IMG/VR virus record: IMGVR_UViG_3300025011_000042
Location: 1 to 63,166 of that record
Strand: one strand, 5' to 3'
Source of the DNA: a virus
Length of the DNA: 63,166 bases
Shown here: positions 22,109-63,166 of the stretch, piece by piece
Layout: every line of letters begins with the position of its first letter
Position numbering within the stretch: the stretch's first letter is position 1
Translations under genes and position numbers: made by a program
Notes under the pieces: generated by a model
The model's input: only the letters and a program-made list of their open reading frames with translations
The model's database searches: none
Told to the model about the DNA's origin: nothing

Positions 22109-22945
22109 ATGAATCTTAGTTATGCTTGGAGACTTTATGAGTCTGATAAGAGGCTAGCGCGGTATGCAGATACAACATTAGACGCGTATCGTCTTCAAGC
22201 TAAGCTCCTAATGCAGCATGTAGGTGACATTAAATTAGATGCATTAGACTTACCTACAATTAAAGATTATTTAATTAGCCTGAGTCATCTAACACCTATG
22301 TCTCTAACACACCGTATTAAGTTTCTTCGTTCAATGCTTAGATGGGCTTCTGATGAAGGGTACATACAAAAGAATCCTATCGCTAAGCTTAAAGACCCTA
22401 AGCTAGGCAAACGTCTACCTAAAGCACTTGATATTGAGTCTATTGAGATACTAAGGGATAGCTGTAAAACATCTTTTGAGAGATCTTTGATTGAATTTTT
22501 GCACTCTACTGGGTGTAGATTAGATGAAGTGTACAACTTAAACAGAACATCATTAAACATGACTAATCTGTCTATTGTAGTAATAGGTAAAGGAGACAGA
22601 GAGCGTGAAGTATACTTCTCTATAATATGTAGATTATGGTTAAACAGATACTTAGCAAGTAGAAAAGATAATGACACAGCGCTATTCGTAACAGAACGGA
22701 TGCCTCATAGAATGTCTAAAGCGCAATTAAGATTCATAGTTAAGAAAATAGCCGATAGGACCGATATAAGTGTTTCAGTATATCCACACAGGTTTAGACA
22801 CAGTTACGCTACACATTTGTTGGATAAAGGGTGTCCTTTAGAAGCAATTAGTGATTTCTTAGGACATGCTAGAATAAGCACAACAAAGATTTACGCACAG
22901 TTATCTAGCGCTAGAAGAAGCGAAATATACAAAAGGTACTTCTAA
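22109..22945 (+). CDS. Tyrosine recombinase, XerC-like
   Basis: This 278-aa protein carries the full catalytic set: R137 (TGCRLDE), K161, H227 and R230 (PHRFRH), H253 (LGHARISTT) and nucleophile Y262 (IYAQ). An N-terminal SAM-like core-binding domain covers about residues 1-95. There is no arm-binding extension of the lambda-integrase kind, and the length matches XerC/D. It may integrate the phage or resolve genome multimers. No excisionase or obvious repressor gene is near. Confidence 0.9.
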   Translation: MNLSYAWRLYESDKRLARYADTTLDAYRLQAKLLMQHVGDIKLDALDLPTIKDYLISLSHLTPMSLTHRIKFLRSMLRWASDEGYIQKNPIAKLKDPKLGKRLPKALDIESIEILRDSCKTSFERSLIEFLHSTGCRLDEVYNLNRTSLNMTNLSIVVIGKGDREREVYFSIICRLWLNRYLASRKDNDTALFVTERMPHRMSKAQLRFIVKKIADRTDISVSVYPHRFRHSYATHLLDKGCPLEAISDFLGHARISTTKIYAQLSSARRSEIYKRYF

Positions 22946-47422: not shown

Positions 47423-48013
47423 GTGGCACAGCAACTAAGTAAATTATGTAGACAATGCGGCGAAGTAAAACCTACTCCTAGTTTTCGTCAGTACTACACA
47501 GGTCGCAAAGGTACTTACAAAATGTGTAAAGCTTGCGAAAGCATTAACTATCGTGTTAAGTACTTGAGTGGTTTAGACACAATGTCAGATAAACAGCAAA
47601 CAGAACTTAATACTATATACAAACTTTGGGAACTACAGCGTTCGCTAGGTTTAGAACCACCTGACTGGAATTTACACGATAAAGATGCTGCGAAAGACCT
47701 AGATGAACAGCTTAGAAAAATGAATAGTAAGTTTGTAAAGTTACCTACAGATGTTATGCTAGCTCTTAGTTTAGAAAGCTCGTATGTAACAGCGCCACGC
47801 GCTAGGTTATATCATTGGGCAACGTGTGAGCTAGACAGCAACACAGAGCCGCAGTACTACACGGAAACAGTGTATGAATCACTTAAAGAATCATTCAGGC
47901 CACAGGTAGGTATGAACTCAACTACATTCTTACCGATTCATGATGAAACATATAAACCTGTGCTTGAATACATTCTGGATAGGTTCTACAAATTTGAGGA
48001 TGAAAGAGCTTAA
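47423..48013 (+). CDS. Zinc-finger protein with helical domain
   Basis: This 196-aa protein starts at a GTG behind AAGGAG. The N-terminus KLCRQCGEVKPTPSFRQYY...CKACESINYR is the same treble-clef finger as in several other genes here. The rest is helical with an acidic linker. Possibly a DNA-binding factor. Confidence 0.65.
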   Translation: MAQQLSKLCRQCGEVKPTPSFRQYYTGRKGTYKMCKACESINYRVKYLSGLDTMSDKQQTELNTIYKLWELQRSLGLEPPDWNLHDKDAAKDLDEQLRKMNSKFVKLPTDVMLALSLESSYVTAPRARLYHWATCELDSNTEPQYYTETVYESLKESFRPQVGMNSTTFLPIHDETYKPVLEYILDRFYKFEDERA

Positions 48014-53242: not shown

Positions 53243-53635
53243 ATGTGGGGATTCAATGGTTATAATTCTACTGAACCATGTGAGATATGCGGTAAAACAG
53301 GCGGTGAGATATGCGGTAAAACAGGCGGTAATAAGTATGAACCGCGGTTCGGTTATACTGTTTGCGAAGAGCATTCGCATATGTCACCTGTTGAAATCAC
53401 AGTTGAACTTAATACTATCAGACTTAAAGCTGAACACGATAAAGCCTTAAGTCAGGCGCTACGTCGAGCCTGCGCCGCGGAGGCTAAGTGTAATCTATAT
53501 AAGGATGGGTTAGCTCGCATAGAACATCTTATGCCCACAACGGTGGTTGGCGCTATTATGGTACGTGATACTATACGAATCATTAAAAAGAAACTAAGAA
53601 AACTGGAGGAACGCACAGATGAAACAACCGATTAA
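53243..53635 (+). CDS. Zinc-motif coiled-coil protein with internal 24-bp duplication
   Basis: This 130-aa protein has CEICGKTGG in which EICGKTGG is duplicated exactly (53282-53305 and 53306-53329), then CEEHSHMSPVEI, a C..C..C..H finger. The rest is an alpha-helical coiled coil (LNTIRLKAEHDKALSQALRRACAAEAKC). The identical repeat indicates a recent slippage. It overlaps the next gene by 17 bases. Confidence 0.6.
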   Translation: MWGFNGYNSTEPCEICGKTGGEICGKTGGNKYEPRFGYTVCEEHSHMSPVEITVELNTIRLKAEHDKALSQALRRACAAEAKCNLYKDGLARIEHLMPTTVVGAIMVRDTIRIIKKKLRKLEERTDETTD

Positions 53636-55912: not shown

Positions 55913-55986
55913 AAATCTAATCCAGTCTAATCTAATCTAATCTAATCCAGTCTAATCTAATCTAATCTAATCTAATCTAATCTATA
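55913..55986. repeat. TCTAA pentamer tandem repeat
   Basis: About 13 copies of TCTAA or TCCAG-type pentamers lie between two minus-strand genes, upstream of paralogue A. Simple tandem repeat; no coding role. Confidence 0.8.
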
Positions 55987-56022
55987 CTAATCCATACTAT
56001 ATTGCTGGATCAATCTACACAA

Positions 56023-56703
56023 TTAATGCGTCTTCCAATACTCATCCCCATAATTATCGATCCTAATTAGAACACTATTGTAGATGCTCTCATATACTGG
56101 GTTTAATATACGAGGATCTCTTTGGTTACTCTGCATTTTATCACGCAGCTCATAGAGTATTTCGTCGTACACCTCAGGGTTATCTGTAAGATCCATTACC
56201 ATAAGTTTATTAAACTCATCCATTAGTGTGTCTTGACCTACAAATGATTGTCCAGTTACTGCAGCACCGTCGGCAGCTACTGTGTAATCTACAAATGTTA
56301 GATTAACACTAAAAGGTTTCTTAGCATTGTTAGCATTATCTACACTACTATCAGCACATTGCGTAGGATCTACAATTCTTCTTGCATTAGCTGTTACTGG
56401 TGGTAAACCTATACGTGTAAGCTTCTTATAATGGTTAGACACGTCTTCTATCTGTTTATTCAGCTCATCAGTCACCTCGCCACTGCGTAGCCTCTTTAAC
56501 AGTCTCATTGCTAATCTTTCGACTGCTTCACACTCGGTACAAATAGTATACGTGCCTTGTGAGGTACCGCTATAAGTCTTCGCCCCCTTGCCGCCTCTAT
56601 ACGGGTACTTTCTGAATGAAACTATGTTAAGTTTGCGGCCGCACTGCTTACACTTCTTCACCGCCACGCCGTTAATTAAAGACGTATTAGATGATTTTTG
56701 CAT
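56023..56703 (-). CDS. Treble-clef zinc-finger protein (paralogue B)
   Basis: This 226-aa protein shares its N-terminus with paralogue A (KKCKQCGRKLNIVSFRKYPYRGG; CTECEAVERLAMRLLKRLRSG; IEDVSNHYKKLTR). It adds a C-terminal domain (about 100-226) with MDEFNKLMVMDLTDNPEVYDEI. The ATG follows AAAGGA. A late-type promoter motif lies 52 bases upstream on the same strand. Confidence 0.65.
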   Translation of the reverse strand: MQKSSNTSLINGVAVKKCKQCGRKLNIVSFRKYPYRGGKGAKTYSGTSQGTYTICTECEAVERLAMRLLKRLRSGEVTDELNKQIEDVSNHYKKLTRIGLPPVTANARRIVDPTQCADSSVDNANNAKKPFSVNLTFVDYTVAADGAAVTGQSFVGQDTLMDEFNKLMVMDLTDNPEVYDEILYELRDKMQSNQRDPRILNPVYESIYNSVLIRIDNYGDEYWKTH

Positions 56704-56995: not shown

Positions 56996-57081
56996 CGCAT
57001 TCTACAAAATTGATAGAAATTACAGAAACTACAGAAGACAACAGATTCTAAACAGAAAACAAAAATAATTTATAAATATAA

Positions 57082-57136
<55 letters not shown>

Positions 57137-57542
57137 TATAATAAATAAATAAATGAATAAATGAGTACTCTTCCTTTGGACGTGTACCCTTCCAGAATGA
57201 ATTGTAGCTATATATGCATGTTATGAAGAACTTTTCAAGGTGATTTTTTAACCAGGCTCCAAGCCCGACGCGGCGCCGTTTTGCTGAGATAAAAGGTACT
57301 TGTAGCGCCTAAATACAGTACTTTTAAAGGCTGTCGGGCCATATACCAGGCTTTTAAAGCGTACGTCCAACTGCAATGATAGTAGCTACCGGGCCGATAA
57401 ATTATGGCCGTGACGCAGCGTCGCTTGGGTATACGACGCCAAAACAGGCTGATCGCAGCGTATGCAGGTGATGTACCGCGACGCTGAGCTGCGTGTGCAG
57501 CCGTATTATAGCGCCACAGAGCAGAGGCCAAGTGCTATGGCG

Positions 57543-57735
57543 CCGCGCAGTCCGACTGTGGCTGTGCAGTTTTGGTCAATTGGAAACGTAGCTATACGAC
57601 TTAAGCAACCGCGGCACCGCGCAGTCCGACTGTGGCTGTAGAAATCGTAGCACATAGCCGCGGTTGCTTACGCTGAATAAAGATCTACAATCTTGTAGGT
57701 CATAGCCCGGTGACGCTGAATCTAAACTTCGCGGC
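57543..57735. repeat. GACTGTGGCTGT repeat element, left copy
   Basis: A 23-bp identical unit containing GACTGTGGCTGT occurs at 57543-57565 and 57617-57639. AAGCAACCGCGG (57603-57614) and CCGCGGTTGCTT (57658-57669) form a perfect 12-bp inverted repeat around the second. About 100 bp (57628-57735) are homologous to 59803-59905. Confidence 0.75.
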
Positions 57736-57760
57736 AAACCGCGAAGTCGCGGTGAAGCAC

Positions 57761-57792
57761 AAAATAAAAACCGCAGGCGTTAACCAGCGGTT
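57761..57792 (-). terminator. Terminator of the minus-strand cassette
   Basis: On the minus strand, AACCGC (57792-57787) pairs with GCGGTT (57774-57769), followed by a T-rich run. It directly follows the stop of the 57800-57994 gene. Confidence 0.65.
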
Positions 57793-57799
57793 AGTTGAA

Positions 57800-57994
57800 C
57801 TACAATTTACATACTATCGCGTTCTGTTGCTGTCTCCAGTCTTTGAACTGTTGTGTAAGTGACTCAGCAAGACATCTGTCACACGGCGCACCGTCGTCAC
57901 ACGGTCTGTTTCCAGTCATTAGGTTTTCATCACAGAAGAATTCGTCTAGAAATCTTCTCCATTCGCTGTACAGTACTTCATTGAGGCTACTCAT
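57800..57994 (-). CDS. Small Cys-containing protein
   Basis: This 64-aa protein starts at ATG 57994 behind AAAGGAG. CDENLMTGNRPCDDGAPCDRC may bind zinc. It overlaps the end of the upstream minus gene by eight bases, so they are probably cotranslated. Function unknown. Confidence 0.55.
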   Translation of the reverse strand: MSSLNEVLYSEWRRFLDEFFCDENLMTGNRPCDDGAPCDRCLAESLTQQFKDWRQQQNAIVCKL

Positions 57995-58481
57995 GCTGCT
58001 TGCTCCTTTCGTACGCAAGCTCTGTGGCGCACTCTTCACAGTGATTCGCGGCATCGCGTGGTAAATCGCAACCGCATCGTTTACACTGCTTAACTTCATC
58101 GCCACTTTCCTGCGCAAGTTTTAATGTACACTTATCACAGTACTCTAAACCATCAAGCGGTATGTCGCAACCGCATCGTTTACACCGTGTAACTTCATCG
58201 CCACTTGCATCAACGCAAATATTAACTTTAGCAGCAACTACAAACTCACGGTCGCCGATGTAACTTGCGTCAAACAGCGTGTATCCTTCTGCCACTTTAC
58301 AACCATTGGCTTTGTCAACTGCAATCTTGTGTATGGCATCACCACTTATTGTCAGCGCTAAGTCTTCACTCCAGTTTTTCCTTAAACTGAACAGTGCGTC
58401 AAACTCAAAAGACTTCTTCAGCAGCTGTTCGTACCTCTCGACAGGTATAGTAACGAAGCCATTCTTGTAGTTATCATGCAT
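57987..58481 (-). CDS. Tandem zinc-ribbon protein
   Basis: This 164-aa protein has an alpha-beta N-terminus (VERYEQLLKKSFEFDALFSL; REFVVAAKVNI) and two duplicated zinc ribbons: CKRCGCDIPLDGLEYCDKC and CKRCGCDLPRDAANHCEEC, each introduced by SGDEV. DNA-level similarity of the repeats (ATCGCAACCGCATCG at both) points to a recent duplication. Confidence 0.65.
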   Translation of the reverse strand: MHDNYKNGFVTIPVERYEQLLKKSFEFDALFSLRKNWSEDLALTISGDAIHKIAVDKANGCKVAEGYTLFDASYIGDREFVVAAKVNICVDASGDEVTRCKRCGCDIPLDGLEYCDKCTLKLAQESGDEVKQCKRCGCDLPRDAANHCEECATELAYERSKQHE

Positions 58482-58510
58482 TGTAATATCCTCCTCGTAT
58501 TTTTGATGTT

Positions 58511-58546
58511 GTGTATCGCCTGCGACAATTTTAGCACAGGCGACAC
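58511..58546 (-). terminator. Terminator inside the minus-strand cassette
   Basis: TCGCCTG (58516-58522) and CAGGCGA (58537-58543) form a stem extended by GTGT/ACAC. It follows the stop of the 58598 gene on the minus strand and precedes the next gene, with an A/T-rich loop. Confidence 0.55.
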
Positions 58547-58597
58547 TGCCAAATTAAGTGCGGTTCGCGTATATATGTGCCGTATATACGTCACGTA

Positions 58598-59365
58598 TTA
58601 ATCCGCCATAATAATCTCCTTGATTTGTTCAAGCAACTGCTTGCTGTCTTGTGACTTAAGTCCTTCAATGTTGATACCAAGGAATAAGTCAGCGATTAAC
58701 TCTCGCGTAGTGTCTACTTCAACTTCTACAATTGTAGTTGCTGCACCAACCCTTATTGCCTTAAGTTGCGCTTCAGCTTTAAGAAGTGATACCCAACGTT
58801 CATCAGTTTCACTGAAGTCAGCTTTTCCCTTCATTATAGACTTCTTGCTCTGAACGTTCCGCAATTCTTTACGCAAGCGGTCTTGATCATCCTGTAGTTC
58901 CTGCAGCAATTCTTCGCTGAACTCAATCGTACCTGTTGCGCGGTTAGCTCCTGAGGCAAGTTTTGATTTGCCAAGCGCTAATCGAACTAAGTTCTCAGCA
59001 ACGGCTCCAACCATCATATTCGCGTAGTTGTCCATAGTCATAACTTTCGATTTGCTGCGGCTACGTTTCGACTGCTGCGACTTGAGCATTCCTTCAAGCG
59101 TCGCTTCGTCAAGCGCTTTAAGAAACGATACGTCCTCAGTAGCTATTGGGTACATCAGTCCAACGAGTTCGTCCATTGCGTTGTGATCAGTTTTAGACTT
59201 CGCAATCAAATCTTTGTGGTCAGCAAAGTTAGCGTCCAACGACTTCAGTACTACGTTGGTAATCTCTGTCGACAGGTTTGTAAGCTGTGCAGTGCCCGCC
59301 AGTCCGCGAGAGTTAGTTACTTGCTGCGCGACGTTGTTGCTTTCGAACAATTGATTAATATCCAT
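58598..59365 (-). CDS. Unknown coiled-coil protein
   Basis: This 255-aa protein has strong coiled coils (EELLQELQDDQDRLRKELRNVQ), the phosphate-rich-looking SQQSKRSRSKSKVM, and no recognised domain. ATG 59365 follows AAAGGAG. The frame remains open upstream to 59722, but that part lies in repeats and lacks a binding site. It may be a structural or DNA-condensing protein. Confidence 0.6.
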   Translation of the reverse strand: MDINQLFESNNVAQQVTNSRGLAGTAQLTNLSTEITNVVLKSLDANFADHKDLIAKSKTDHNAMDELVGLMYPIATEDVSFLKALDEATLEGMLKSQQSKRSRSKSKVMTMDNYANMMVGAVAENLVRLALGKSKLASGANRATGTIEFSEELLQELQDDQDRLRKELRNVQSKKSIMKGKADFSETDERWVSLLKAEAQLKAIRVGAATTIVEVEVDTTRELIADLFLGINIEGLKSQDSKQLLEQIKEIIMAD

Positions 59366-59455
59366 AAGTTTCTCCTTTGTACCGCCATCCATGCGGTTGC
59401 TACTTTGTGCCGTAGCCAGCAATTTATGTAGGCTTATTTCACCATCTCTAATTAT

Positions 59456-59461
59456 ATTATA
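59456..59461 (-). promoter_or_regulatory. Promoter -10 of the minus-strand cassette
   Basis: On the minus strand the sequence is GTTATAATATAATTA, matching the early-type TATAATATWA motif. It is about 90 bases before the start at 59365. Confidence 0.5.
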
Positions 59462-59732
59462 ACGCATCCTGTAGTGTATGTATTCAGTTTTCAGAGAAAC
59501 GATGCAGTGCTGCAATAATTTTTCGCTGCTGTGAAGCACTACACAGTTTGGCCTGGCTGAGGCTGCAGCGGTGGTATGAGGCATTGGCAGACTGAAGCGG
59601 CGCGGTGACGCTCGCCACCTGCCTGCTGCTAGGCTTTTAACGGACTCAGCACACAAATACCGCGCTGTATTTTTATAGCCGCAGCGTTGCATTATCAATA
59701 CGAGACTGCGTAGCTGCGACACAGTGCAACCT

Positions 59733-59905
59733 GACTGCGGCTGTGCAGTTGCAGCATAGCACAGATCGACTGTGGCTGTGCAGTTGCAGCGCCACTCGAA
59801 CTGACTGTGGCTGCGCGAATCACCTGGCCGCGGTTGCTTGCGCTGAATGAAGTTCCAAAGTCTTGTAGATCTCAGCCCGGTGGTGCTGGTTCTGATCTTT
59901 GCGGC
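59733..59905. repeat. GACTGTGGCTGT repeat element, right copy
   Basis: GACTGCGGCTGT, GACTGTGGCTGT and GACTGTGGCTGC are followed by GCCGCGGTTGCTTGCGCTG, then TCTTGTAGATC and AGCCCGGTG, in the same order as at 57628-57735. The two copies flank the minus-strand cassette in direct orientation. Confidence 0.7.
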
Positions 59906-59952
59906 CTTAAAAATTTTTCTTAAAAACTTAACACAGCCGCGTTGAAGTATGG

Positions 59953-59958
59953 TATAAT
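59953..59958 (+). promoter_or_regulatory. Promoter -10
   Basis: GGTATAATATAAAC is the TATAATATWA early-type motif, 45 bases before the next gene. The -35 region is unclear. Confidence 0.5.
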
Positions 59959-59997
59959 ATAAACAGTGGGGAAAATTTAACTAAGGCGGTGCGTGTA

Positions 59998-60213
59998 TTG
60001 AAAGCTCTTATACACCGTGTAAACAGTGAGGTTAGAGAAATAAGCGGCGACAGTGCTTCTATTGAAATGCGTGGCAACGAAATGTGGTTAGTAGTTCACA
60101 GGTCTAATATGTACAAAAGTTGGACCACAGCTAGTGTACAGTTGAATGAGCCGTGTGAAGCAGGCTGGGAACTACAACGTGTTGAGTTTGTTAGTGATAG
60201 TTTGCGTAATTAA
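59998..60213 (+). CDS. Unknown small protein
   Basis: This 71-aa protein starts at a TTG, eight bases after AAGGCGG. Alpha-beta sequence with AGWELQRVEFV. Function unknown. Confidence 0.55.
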   Translation: MKALIHRVNSEVREISGDSASIEMRGNEMWLVVHRSNMYKSWTTASVQLNEPCEAGWELQRVEFVSDSLRN

Positions 60214-60235
60214 TCAACAGGAGGTAACTACAAGT

Positions 60236-60325
60236 ATGTCAAATACAACTATACGCGTAGTACTAATTATTACATCGCTGTTAGCCATGTGGGGATTGAT
60301 AAGTTACTTTCATGGAGGTGCGTGA
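60236..60325 (+). CDS. Tiny membrane peptide
   Basis: This 29-aa protein is behind AGGAGG. One membrane helix (VVLIITSLLAMWGLISYF). It ends TGA in overlap with the next ATG. Confidence 0.55.
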   Translation: MSNTTIRVVLIITSLLAMWGLISYFHGGA

Positions 60326-60489
60326 TGTTTAAAGATTGGGTACATCATACGATTGCAACTAGCTTAATTGCAGTTATTGGAGTAGCCGTTAGTTATGTAT
60401 CTCCGATACAAATTAACGGCACAGCGGCCATGTTTGTTGCGTTATACGCGTTGAGTGTTGCTATCAGCAACTCAACTACTAAGGTTTGA
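60325..60489 (+). CDS. Small two-helix membrane protein
   Basis: This 54-aa protein starts in the TGATG overlap. Two hydrophobic segments (ATSLIAVIGVAVSYV and AAMFVALYALSVAI) resemble a small holin, but it is far from the lysis cassette. Function unknown. Confidence 0.5.
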   Translation: MFKDWVHHTIATSLIAVIGVAVSYVSPIQINGTAAMFVALYALSVAISNSTTKV

Positions 60490-60534
60490 TTGTGGCGTTG
60501 TGCTACACTAAAATAAATTAGGAGGCTGAAAGTT

Positions 60535-60948
60535 ATGTATAACATTACTAAATGCGAGGAAGTATTCTTCACTGGTTTAACTGAGCAGCAACAACGTATT
60601 TACGCATTGTCTGATACTCAATTGCGTAAGTTACATGCGATTGATGACTACTGCGTTAATGAATTCATCAATGCAGCGTTACTGCTTAATGCTTTGCATG
60701 CTGCGCATGAAACTTACAACATAATGACTGAAAAGTACTGTTTGCGGACTGAGAATGAAGATGTAGATAACTTGCTTGGTGAAGCGTTCAATTGTTCAAT
60801 TACAATTGGAACGCAATCAGCTGTTATACCGTTATGTTACATGGACAGTTGCGATGCACTATACGTTTACTTAGCACATGTAAAAATGAATGGCTTTAAC
60901 ATTATGGTTGATAGTGTAAAGATCGATGATCTTATTGGTTGTTTGTAG
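60535..60948 (+). CDS. Unknown helical protein
   Basis: This 137-aa protein is behind AGGAGG. Mostly helical (INAALLLNALHAAHETYNIM). The C-terminal half aligns loosely with the protein at 61281 (FNCSITIGTQSAVIPL versus DKLTITINGQQLELPL), suggesting distant paralogues. Confidence 0.55.
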   Translation: MYNITKCEEVFFTGLTEQQQRIYALSDTQLRKLHAIDDYCVNEFINAALLLNALHAAHETYNIMTEKYCLRTENEDVDNLLGEAFNCSITIGTQSAVIPLCYMDSCDALYVYLAHVKMNGFNIMVDSVKIDDLIGCL

Positions 60949-60954
60949 CAACGT

Positions 60955-60980
60955 AAAATGCTTGCATTAGCAAGCATTTT
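60955..60980 (+). terminator. Intrinsic terminator
   Basis: AAAATGCTTGC (60955-60965) pairs perfectly with GCAAGCATTTT (60970-60980), giving a T-rich end. It directly follows the stop of the preceding gene. Confidence 0.85.
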
Positions 60981-61212
60981 ATTTTAGCGTTCAATGCAGT
61001 GACACATCGCGCCTTGTACAGTATACTGCTTTTATGCGGCGCAATTGCTTCATATGTCAACAATAACTACAAATTGGTGTAGTTACTGCATTATTCAAGC
61101 TGACTGTGGCTGTGATGTGGTTATAATATTGTTCAAGCTGACTGTGGCTGTATAAATATTGCGGCTATAACATTTATTTTCAAAAACTGACATAAACTGC
61201 GCTAAAATGTAG

Positions 61213-61218
61213 TATAAT
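61213..61218 (+). promoter_or_regulatory. Promoter -10
   Basis: AGTATAATATAATT is an early-type motif upstream of the 61281 gene. A small hairpin (TGCAGC/GCTGCA around 61250-61265) lies in the leader. Confidence 0.5.
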
Positions 61219-61280
61219 ATAATTAAGCTGCAAAAGGCTAAAATATATTGCAGCTAAAGCTGCAGAAAGAAGGTTATAGC

Positions 61281-61547
61281 ATGAACAAAACTTTAGAGCA
61301 AGTAGAAACTATCGACGTCGACACAAACGTATTATTGTTAGAAGCCGCAAGCAATATTACAGCGTTAATTAATAACGCATGCGACTATCATCATACGTAT
61401 GACATACGCGACGACAAGCTTACTATAACTATTAACGGTCAACAGCTTGAACTGCCACTGTATTCAGCCGACGTGCTTAATATGCTGGCTGCGTTCATCG
61501 ACGAAGTAAAAGACTTTGCAACGTCAGAACTAAACTATGGTAAATAA
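61281..61547 (+). CDS. Unknown small protein
   Basis: This 88-aa acidic protein starts at ATG 61281 behind AGAAGG. Contains NVLLLEAASNITALINNACDY and VLNMLAAFIDEVKDF. It may be a distant paralogue of the protein at 60535. A terminator follows. Confidence 0.55.
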   Translation: MNKTLEQVETIDVDTNVLLLEAASNITALINNACDYHHTYDIRDDKLTITINGQQLELPLYSADVLNMLAAFIDEVKDFATSELNYGK

Positions 61548-61554
61548 CTACCGC

Positions 61555-61575
61555 ATAGCGGCCATTGGCCGCTAT
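61555..61575 (+). terminator. Intrinsic terminator
   Basis: ATAGCGGCC (61555-61563) pairs with GGCCGCTAT (61567-61575), followed by TTATTTTT. Confidence 0.85.
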
Positions 61576-61690
61576 TTATTTTTGCTTTTATGCGGCGCCG
61601 GATAGCACTACAGCTTTTATGCAGCACAGCGCTACCGGGCCGAAGCAGTGCTTTTATGCAGCACAACACAGATTGGCTGTGGCTGTAATT

Positions 61691-61779
61691 ATTCAGAAGA
61701 TTCAGAATACTCAGAATATTCAGAAGATTCAGAAGATTCAGAATATTCAGAAGATTCAGAAGATTCAGAATATTCAGAC
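61691..61779. repeat. ATTCAGAAG 9-bp tandem array, first
   Basis: About ten copies of a 9-bp unit (ATTCAGAAG, ATTCAGAAT, ACTCAGAAT variants). Followed by CTATTTGCAGCTAGC as in the second array. Confidence 0.85.
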
Positions 61780-61821
61780 TATTTGCAGCTAGCGTTTTGC
61801 ACCAGCTGACTGTGGCTGTAA

Positions 61822-61976
61822 TCATTCAGAAGATTCAGAAGACTCATAATATTCAGAAGATTCAGAAGATTCAGAAGATTCAGAAGATTCAGAAGATTCA
61901 GAAGATTCAGAAGATTCAGAAGATTCAGAAGATTCAGAAGATTCAGAAGATTCAGAAGATTCAGAATATTCAGACT
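61822..61976. repeat. ATTCAGAAG 9-bp tandem array, second
   Basis: About 17 copies of the same unit, including a run of about 13 uninterrupted ATTCAGAAG. The flanks repeat those of the first array. Confidence 0.9.
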
Positions 61977-62056
61977 ATTTGCAGCTAGCATTTTGCACCA
62001 GCTGACTGTGACTGCAATAATTAAGAATATTATGAATATTCTGAATATTTAAAATA

Positions 62057-62089
62057 AAATAAGACTTGACATTATGTCAAGTCTTATTT
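62057..62089 (-). terminator. Terminator of the minus-strand coiled-coil gene
   Basis: AAATAAGACTTGACA (62057-62071) and TGTCAAGTCTTATTT (62075-62089) form a perfect 15-bp stem with loop TTA. T-runs on both strands make it usable in both directions. Confidence 0.85.
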
Positions 62090-62094
62090 ATATT

Positions 62095-62610
62095 TTATAA
62101 TAATTTTTGCAACAGAGCTAAAATTCTGTTTTTATCGACTTCGACGTTTTCTTCTAAAACGTCTATTATCGTCTGAATTTCAGTTTTTCGAACGTTTAAA
62201 TCGTCGACTGGAGCTACGGTTAATTTATGTTCAAGCAGCATCTGTTCGATTTCGCAAGCTTTTCGATATTCGTCGTTATTTCCGGCTTCGTCATTTAGCC
62301 ATTTCGTCAGCGTTTTTTTGCTCTGAATCGATCTAATGGCTTTAACAGTTTCGTCGTAATCTAATTTTTTAATATCGGCTAAAGTATACATCGTAACCGG
62401 TTTTTCTTTTGGCTCGAGCAAGTTTTTAGCTTCTTTTAAAATCTGTTCTTGCTGCAAAACTTCCGTCATTTCGTCTTGATATGACTTTTTGCCCTTTTGC
62501 TTTTTAAGTCTGCATTTTACAGACTGAATTCTTTTAATTTCTTTTTGCAACAATTCGACATCATTGCAGAATTTTACGCAGACTTCTTGAACTTTTTCGA
62601 GATTGATCAT
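62095..62610 (-). CDS. Unknown coiled-coil protein
   Basis: This 171-aa highly helical, Lys/Glu-rich protein (VELLQKEIKRIQSVKCRLKKQKGKK; TEVLQQEQILKEAKNLLEP) is behind GGAGG. It lies between inverted tandem arrays. Its base usage (TTCG-rich, AT-rich third positions) looks different from neighbouring genes, suggesting separate acquisition. Function unknown. Confidence 0.6.
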   Translation of the reverse strand: MINLEKVQEVCVKFCNDVELLQKEIKRIQSVKCRLKKQKGKKSYQDEMTEVLQQEQILKEAKNLLEPKEKPVTMYTLADIKKLDYDETVKAIRSIQSKKTLTKWLNDEAGNNDEYRKACEIEQMLLEHKLTVAPVDDLNVRKTEIQTIIDVLEENVEVDKNRILALLQKLL

Positions 62611-62849
62611 TTTAAAATTCCTCCGATTTTTAATAGATTTTTGTACATTATTCAGTTATCAAAGACCGTATAAATTAATGGCAAATAATAGTAGTTTAAA
62701 TAAAGTTTGAGCTATTTGACGCAGTTAATTTATAATTTATTTATTTATTAAATATATTATATAACGTTTTGATTAAAAAGTAAATAGCTTTTTGAATAGC
62801 CGCAATATTAAAATTATTCTGAATAGTCTGAATATTCTTAATAGCTTAA

Positions 62850-62970
62850 ATATTCTGAGTATTCTGAGTATTCTGAGTATTCTGAGTATTCTGAGTATTC
62901 TGAGTATTCTGAGTATTCTGAGTATTCTGAGTATTCTGAGTATTCTGAATATTCAGAATATTCTTACAGG
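62850..62970. repeat. TATTCTGAG 9-bp tandem array (inverted relative to the others)
   Basis: About eleven TATTCTGAG units, the reverse-complement family of the arrays at 61.7-62.0 kb. It ends in the perfect 20-bp palindrome at 62941-62960. Confidence 0.85.
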
Positions 62971-63052: not shown

Positions 63053-63166
63053 CAAGCAGCGTCCAAGCATCATGGCGTCCAAGCATCATGGCGTCCAGAT
63101 AAATCCAAATATTGTAGATCCTAAATAAGGCAATATTGTAGTTACGTATATACAAAAATAAAGCCA
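63053..63166. repeat. Terminal direct repeat (right copy)
   Basis: Identical to 1-130 but with two 16-bp units (63059-63090) instead of three. Shows circular closure or redundant ends. Confidence 0.9.

Follow-up and report, generated by a model that had tools for sequence, protein, structure and literature searches.

Integron cassette arrays consist of single-gene cassettes of unknown function, bounded by directly repeated, divergent attC sites. Among phages, the stoperators of cluster A mycobacteriophages such as L5 and Bxb1 are single 13-bp repressor-bound sites, distributed genome-wide and oriented with transcription (PMC6550527, PMC9283540), while the repeated element of SPbeta, SPBRE, comprises 15-bp operators within promoters that are bound by MrpR (PMC10516654). 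The SAS/ESAS elements of cluster K mycobacteriophages are 13-bp asymmetric repeats located 3-7 bp before start codons (PMC3203893), and halovirus-type intergenic repeats carry promoters (PMC8707807). Here we describe a family of oriented intergenic arrays that is real and conserved within one uncultured phage lineage, and for which a limited literature search found no description. The arrays resemble stoperators, SPBRE and SAS as lineage-specific oriented repeats, although the defining features of those systems are absent or not established here.

The window analysed is the whole of IMG/VR record IMGVR_UViG_3300025011_000042 (63,166 nt), in which positions 63053-63166 duplicate the first 130 bases minus one 16-nt unit. 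As the record ends overlap save for this unit, the genome is complete, and either circular or permuted. A 16-bp tandem repeat, GCGTCCAAGCATCATG, lies at both ends (1-61 and 63059-63097) with a copy number that differs by one between them, and it is probably because of this difference that the terminal redundancy was missed at assembly. The gene set is that of a tailed phage, including terminase, portal, tape measure, primase, polymerase and ligase as well as ribonucleotide reductase, integrase and amidase. The preliminary description placed the repeats at the right end of the DNA; they do lie at the end of the record, but this end is a mere cut point and the region sits just upstream of the terminase genes. 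Isolate phage genomes contained nothing close at the DNA level to the right 23 kb of the record. Two ORFs, 56023-56703 (with a C-x2-C...C-x2-C pattern) and 47423-48013, have tblastn matches in the same relatives (25-28% and 30-44% identity, respectively) and are likely distant paralogues. Simple repeats elsewhere in the window include an AATCT pentamer array (55914-55992), an ATA triplet array (57078-57144) and a perfect 24-bp tandem duplication within an ORF (53280-53329).

All ten copies of GACTGTGGCTGT initially listed between 57554 and 62004 are present, on the plus strand and in non-coding sequence: six are exact, those at 59733, 59803 and 61675 carry one mismatch, and that at 62004 carries two. 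Elsewhere in the 63-kb record, only one match is found at up to two mismatches (minus strand, 995). Within 57200-62050, nine copies at up to one mismatch lie on the plus strand and none on the minus strand, and dinucleotide shuffles of this interval give a mean of 0.03 copies over both strands (maximum 1). The second reported motif, TGCTTTTATGC, is likewise non-coding and confined to one strand, with exact copies at 61027, 61583 and 61649, but the fourth copy, originally placed at 61610, is the one-change variant AGCTTTTATGC at 61612. The perfect inverted repeat with the 57628 copy in its loop also exists, although its arms (TAAGCAACCGCGGC 57602-57615; GCCGCGGTTGCTTA 57657-57670) measure 14 bp rather than 12. 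Coding repeats were rejected, as the sequence is non-coding and its periods (35, 38, 40 and 41) include no multiple-of-3 period in an ORF.

The GACTGTGGCTGT 12-mer is not a stand-alone family but the core of a block, M4 (RCTGNGRCTG), within composite intergenic arrays. A second block, M1 (GGTTTTAGCSGC), is represented by TGCTTTTATGC in the window, as in some relatives, and a third, M3 (CTAGTAGAT), reads TTGTAGRT in the window. The order (M4-M1)n-M4-M3-M4 is fixed in most array-bearing relatives, and M4-M4 spacing peaks at 39-44 bp, a peak confined to one strand; the period is about 40 bp in relatives and 35-38 bp in the window. The idea of a phage-borne small repeat family is right, and relatives carry the repeats; the unit exceeds the 12-mer and forms a composite array with a period of about 35-44 bp. 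Some units are duplicated within one phage, for example with identical spacers. The arrays occupy the gaps around and between gene A, a set of small cassette genes and gene B, in a single orientation that is independent of gene orientation, remaining constant beside genes of both strands; gene A itself is on the minus strand in most phages and on the opposite strand in L216, where the arrays still run in the same sense. A CRISPR-like array was rejected, the repeats being divergent and the spacers partly common to units, and CRISPR/tracr mimicry and type III toxin-antitoxin repeats were likewise dropped on anatomy. The island in the window is laid out as follows.

57225-57740, plus strand: E1, the array left of gene A, with an M1-like GCTTTTA at 57350, M4 at 57554 and 57628, a block M2 (TTGCTTACGC) at about 57664 and M3 (TTGTAGGT) at about 57692; contains the 14-bp hairpin.
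57602-57670, plus strand: perfect inverted repeat with 14-bp arms and a loop that holds an M4 copy, window-specific, fold z -5.7/-6.9.
57987-58481, minus strand: ORF between E1 and A, weak zinc-ribbon similarity (PF17032, below cut-off).
58598-59365, minus strand: gene A, 255 aa, all-helical, QSKK repeat(s), conserved in relatives.
59500-59910, plus strand: E2, between the minus-strand promoter of A and the first plus-strand cassette, with a looser M4 core at 59556, M1-like at 59633, M4 at 59733, 59768 and 59803 (35-bp period), M2 at about 59833 and M3 at about 59862.
60535-60948, plus strand: cassette gene encoding 137 aa, with homologues among the cassette genes of L196 and L200.
60985-61180, plus strand: E3, with M1 at 61027 and M4 at 61102 and 61140; upstream, a hairpin with a T-run read by eye (about 60956-60986); downstream, the promoter of the next cassette.
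61186-61220, plus strand: cassette promoter, AAAACTGACATAAACTGC...TAGTATAATATAA, conserved before cassettes in relatives.
61248-61547, plus strand: cassette gene encoding 99 aa, listed with a TTG start.
61551-62050, plus strand: E4, with M1 at 61583, 61612 and 61649, M4 at 61675, 61808 and 62004, and interleaved (TTCAGAAGA)n.
62095-62610, minus strand: gene B, encoding 171 aa with two QSKK helical-hairpin repeats.

E4 is flanked by predicted terminators (61555-61575 and 62057-62089) of convergent genes. On either side of B, in roughly inverted arrangement, are arrays with a 9-bp unit (ATTCAGAAG and TATTCTGAG; 61691-61974 and 62815-62964), which are a candidate operator, origin or partition site. 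L211, L216 and L217 have similar arrays close to B, and in G011 two arrays of the 8-bp unit TTGTAAGA form an inverted pair.

About 20 uncultured relatives were found via terminase and gene A, with more recovered via motif patterns and gene B, and arrays lie at the same place in about 20 related uncultured phage contigs. Because these relatives carry the same family, the repeats are not an assembly artefact, a possibility raised when they were first reported. Three MAG contigs carry relatives, but these may be mis-binned phage contigs and do not assign a host. Profiles of the M3-M4 end and of the unit, trained on relatives with the window left out, gave 49 and 87 matches respectively at E<0.1 in 630 kb, against 0 in a reversed-sequence control, and every match falls within or next to the A-B island, all pointing the same way with respect to A/B. 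The window belongs to the family as a divergent member: its best profile scores fall in its island, on the plus strand and at the copies initially reported, with a match in E1 at 57604; the 3' halves of E1 and E2 align with elements of relatives, and the end of E3 plus its promoter shows 73.5% identity to relative G006 across 136 bp. Profiles for M1 and M3 gave no match in the most distant islands (L209, L210, L211 and L215-L217), where looser versions were seen by eye only. In G011, which has a single A-like protein, no B and no array match were detected. The short word alone is no marker, as an exact scan of viral contigs for the 14-mer CTGACTGTGGCTGT gave only single chance matches.

A and B recur across the relatives, whereas the small genes between them differ. 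Cassette families also change order, running F1-F2 in G001 and F2-F1 in G009. In the close pair L213/L214, a unit of about 747 bp comprising array end, promoter, gene and terminator is found only in L214, where both flanks carry GCTCGGGC(G/A)CGCTGAGGC; the corresponding junction in L213 falls within CGCTGAGGC, the M4 core, and provides one direct case for recombination points, another of the roles first suggested for the repeats. In the close pair L216/L217 the arrays of L217 are mosaic, and one breakpoint lies near a ribosome-binding site, outside the arrays. General homologous recombination at any repeat could have generated these junctions. Downstream of the arrays lies a promoter that is itself conserved across relatives (AAACTGACAYAAACYGC...TGRTATAATATAA). 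In some elements, M4 precedes it by about 65-90 bp; E2 and E3 are upstream of promoters, and E1 and E4 are not. In the window (61186-61220) and in relatives, this strongly conserved promoter carries, ahead of an extended -10, a pair of AACTG boxes spaced by about 10 bp, which suggests that a single phage-specific activator serves the island.

A and B have in common a helical hairpin of about 50 residues with the motif IxxxQSKKSxxK ("QSKK"), and repeat 2 of A aligns with both repeats of B at an hhalign probability of 92-94%. A QSKK HMM matches only A and B proteins plus one lone homologue in G011, and the string SQQSKRSR is invariant across 13 A homologues. Identity of A among relatives falls to 37-55%. 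AlphaFold models of both proteins are all-helical, with moderate confidence, and foldseek comparison with solved structures in the PDB gave no significant fold match. No informative match was found in Pfam, PHROGs (A as an alignment, B as a single protein), PADLOC or PDB for either protein, nor in NCBIfam for B. Given these family and structure libraries, the hairpin may represent an undescribed domain. Both proteins are absent from isolate phage records, and B also from plasmids. Neither matches a known DNA-binding family, and neither has a basic net charge (A, 32 K+R against 39 D+E; B, 31 against 31). In L180 (2508-3000), gene B is split across two frames, through either a frameshift or a sequencing error.

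These comparisons enabled us to propose, tentatively, that the oriented arrays are protein-bound boundaries of exchangeable single-gene cassettes in a fast-changing A-B accessory island, the leading reading but one that is possible rather than probable. In this model, each array would be a run of asymmetric sites, with M4 recurring about 40 bp apart, M1 alternating with it and M3-M4 at the end, to which a sequence-specific protein would bind as double-stranded DNA. We infer from co-location that A and/or B are the prime candidates, a co-occurrence that is partly by construction because most contigs were found via A, B or terminase. Once bound, an array would insulate the individual cassettes, each with its own promoter and terminator, and would serve as a junction for cassette gain, loss or exchange. 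Protein binding, the partnership with A/B, insulation and selection for exchange are all steps that we infer. Speaking against the model are the non-basic charge of A and B and their lack of similarity to known DNA-binding families or folds, the L216/L217 breakpoint outside the arrays, the failure of M1 and M3 profiles in the most distant islands, and the hairpins and spacer signal on the plus strand described below. Putative protein-binding sites fit best among the three roles of the preliminary description, the other two being recombination points and structured RNA.

It is unlikely that the arrays are instead transcribed from the plus strand as a repeated-unit non-coding RNA acting as sponge, scaffold or A/B substrate. 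Their asymmetric, one-strand motifs, their GC-rich composition in an AT-rich genome, good hairpins in some units, the 14-bp hairpin of the window and a permutation test on plus-strand spacers, which reached p about 0.02 for two of its four cuts (uncorrected for multiple tests), would all suit such an RNA. Conversely, RNAalifold found no consensus pair on either strand and arm-swap tests found no consistent compensatory pairing, swapped M3 arms on the plus strand being no worse than native ones and the difference not significant. MFE folds and an ungapped pair matrix were negative or marginal, mean fold z-scores (-1.16/-1.00) are near the background of -0.58, and hairpins read by eye in unit spacers barely exceed those in shuffled spacers (11.9 vs 10.7). 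The window hairpin, for which RNA covariance modelling was initially suggested, is not common to relatives. Rfam gave no match for the arrays at gathering thresholds, and an e-value scan only chance microRNA matches on the 9-bp arrays. The several arrays that run from terminator to promoter also leave little room for a promoter of their own. A DNA-level role is favoured over an RNA one because there is no conserved structure and no Rfam match, and because arrays sit between terminators and promoters.

Within a DNA-level role, the arrays might be passive, that is, tandemly duplicated intergenic DNA whose sole role, or by-product, is to provide homology for cassette swapping. The cassette indel at M4, the unit duplications within phages and the mosaic arrays of L217 are consistent with this, yet block order and orientation persist where A has diverged to the identities given above, and three distinct words should not survive in drifting repeats; we consider it rather doubtful. 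Oriented DNA-processing sites, such as an origin, partition or packaging array or sites for a directional host machine, are quite unlikely. An orientation tied to the genome and not to genes, the position upstream of the terminase genes, the inverted 9-bp arrays around B and the sole GC-skew reversal of the genome, at 54-59 kb, speak for them, but this reversal coincides with gene orientation, many genes interrupt the sites over about 4.5 kb and no par or rep neighbour was identified. Stoperator-like roadblocks, at which an array-bound repressor would halt plus-strand read-through into the island, would explain asymmetric sites in one orientation between transcription units; with tandem arrays instead of single 13-bp sites, an orientation untied to local transcription and no repressor identified, this is highly improbable.

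Phage accessory genes that change quickly are kept in defined islands, but sequence seldom reveals how single genes are slotted into and out of them. In the island described here, most cassettes have a promoter of their own, a conserved oriented array lies between them and two uncharacterised proteins recur with it. If the protein-bound boundary model is correct and the arrays are A/B sites, they would form a new system of DNA sites and proteins, and cassette turnover would gain a testable mechanism; at minimum, they provide a signature for locating the accessory genes of this family of uncultured phages.

Compared with known systems, the arrays share with stoperators many short, asymmetric, phage-specific sites, mostly in one orientation and with motif drift between related phages, but they are composite tandem arrays of about 40 bp, restricted to one island and independent of gene direction. 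Like SPBRE, which later proved to be a protein site, they recur between the genes of a single phage lineage, although they also occur between convergent genes, and in arrays. Unlike SAS, they are far from start codons, beyond promoters and terminators, with a promoter intervening between element and gene, yet they resemble SAS/ESAS in being asymmetric, in being nearly all in one orientation, in having an associated second element and in lying in the non-structural half. As regards halovirus-type repeats, which contain the promoter, the conserved promoter here is downstream of M4 in some elements and missing at E1 and E4. An integron attC array was rejected, since the tyrosine recombinase of the window (22109-22945) lies 35 kb from the island and found a counterpart only in the near-identical G010; no attC core sites were seen, there is no integron integrase in the island and the cassettes have their own promoters and terminators. 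It is very unlikely, though conceivable, that the island is an integron-like phage cassette-exchange system with its own boundary arrays and a dedicated QSKK pair, unrelated to known recombination systems. With integron arrays, the island shares single-gene cassettes whose limits are marked by divergent sites in direct repeat.
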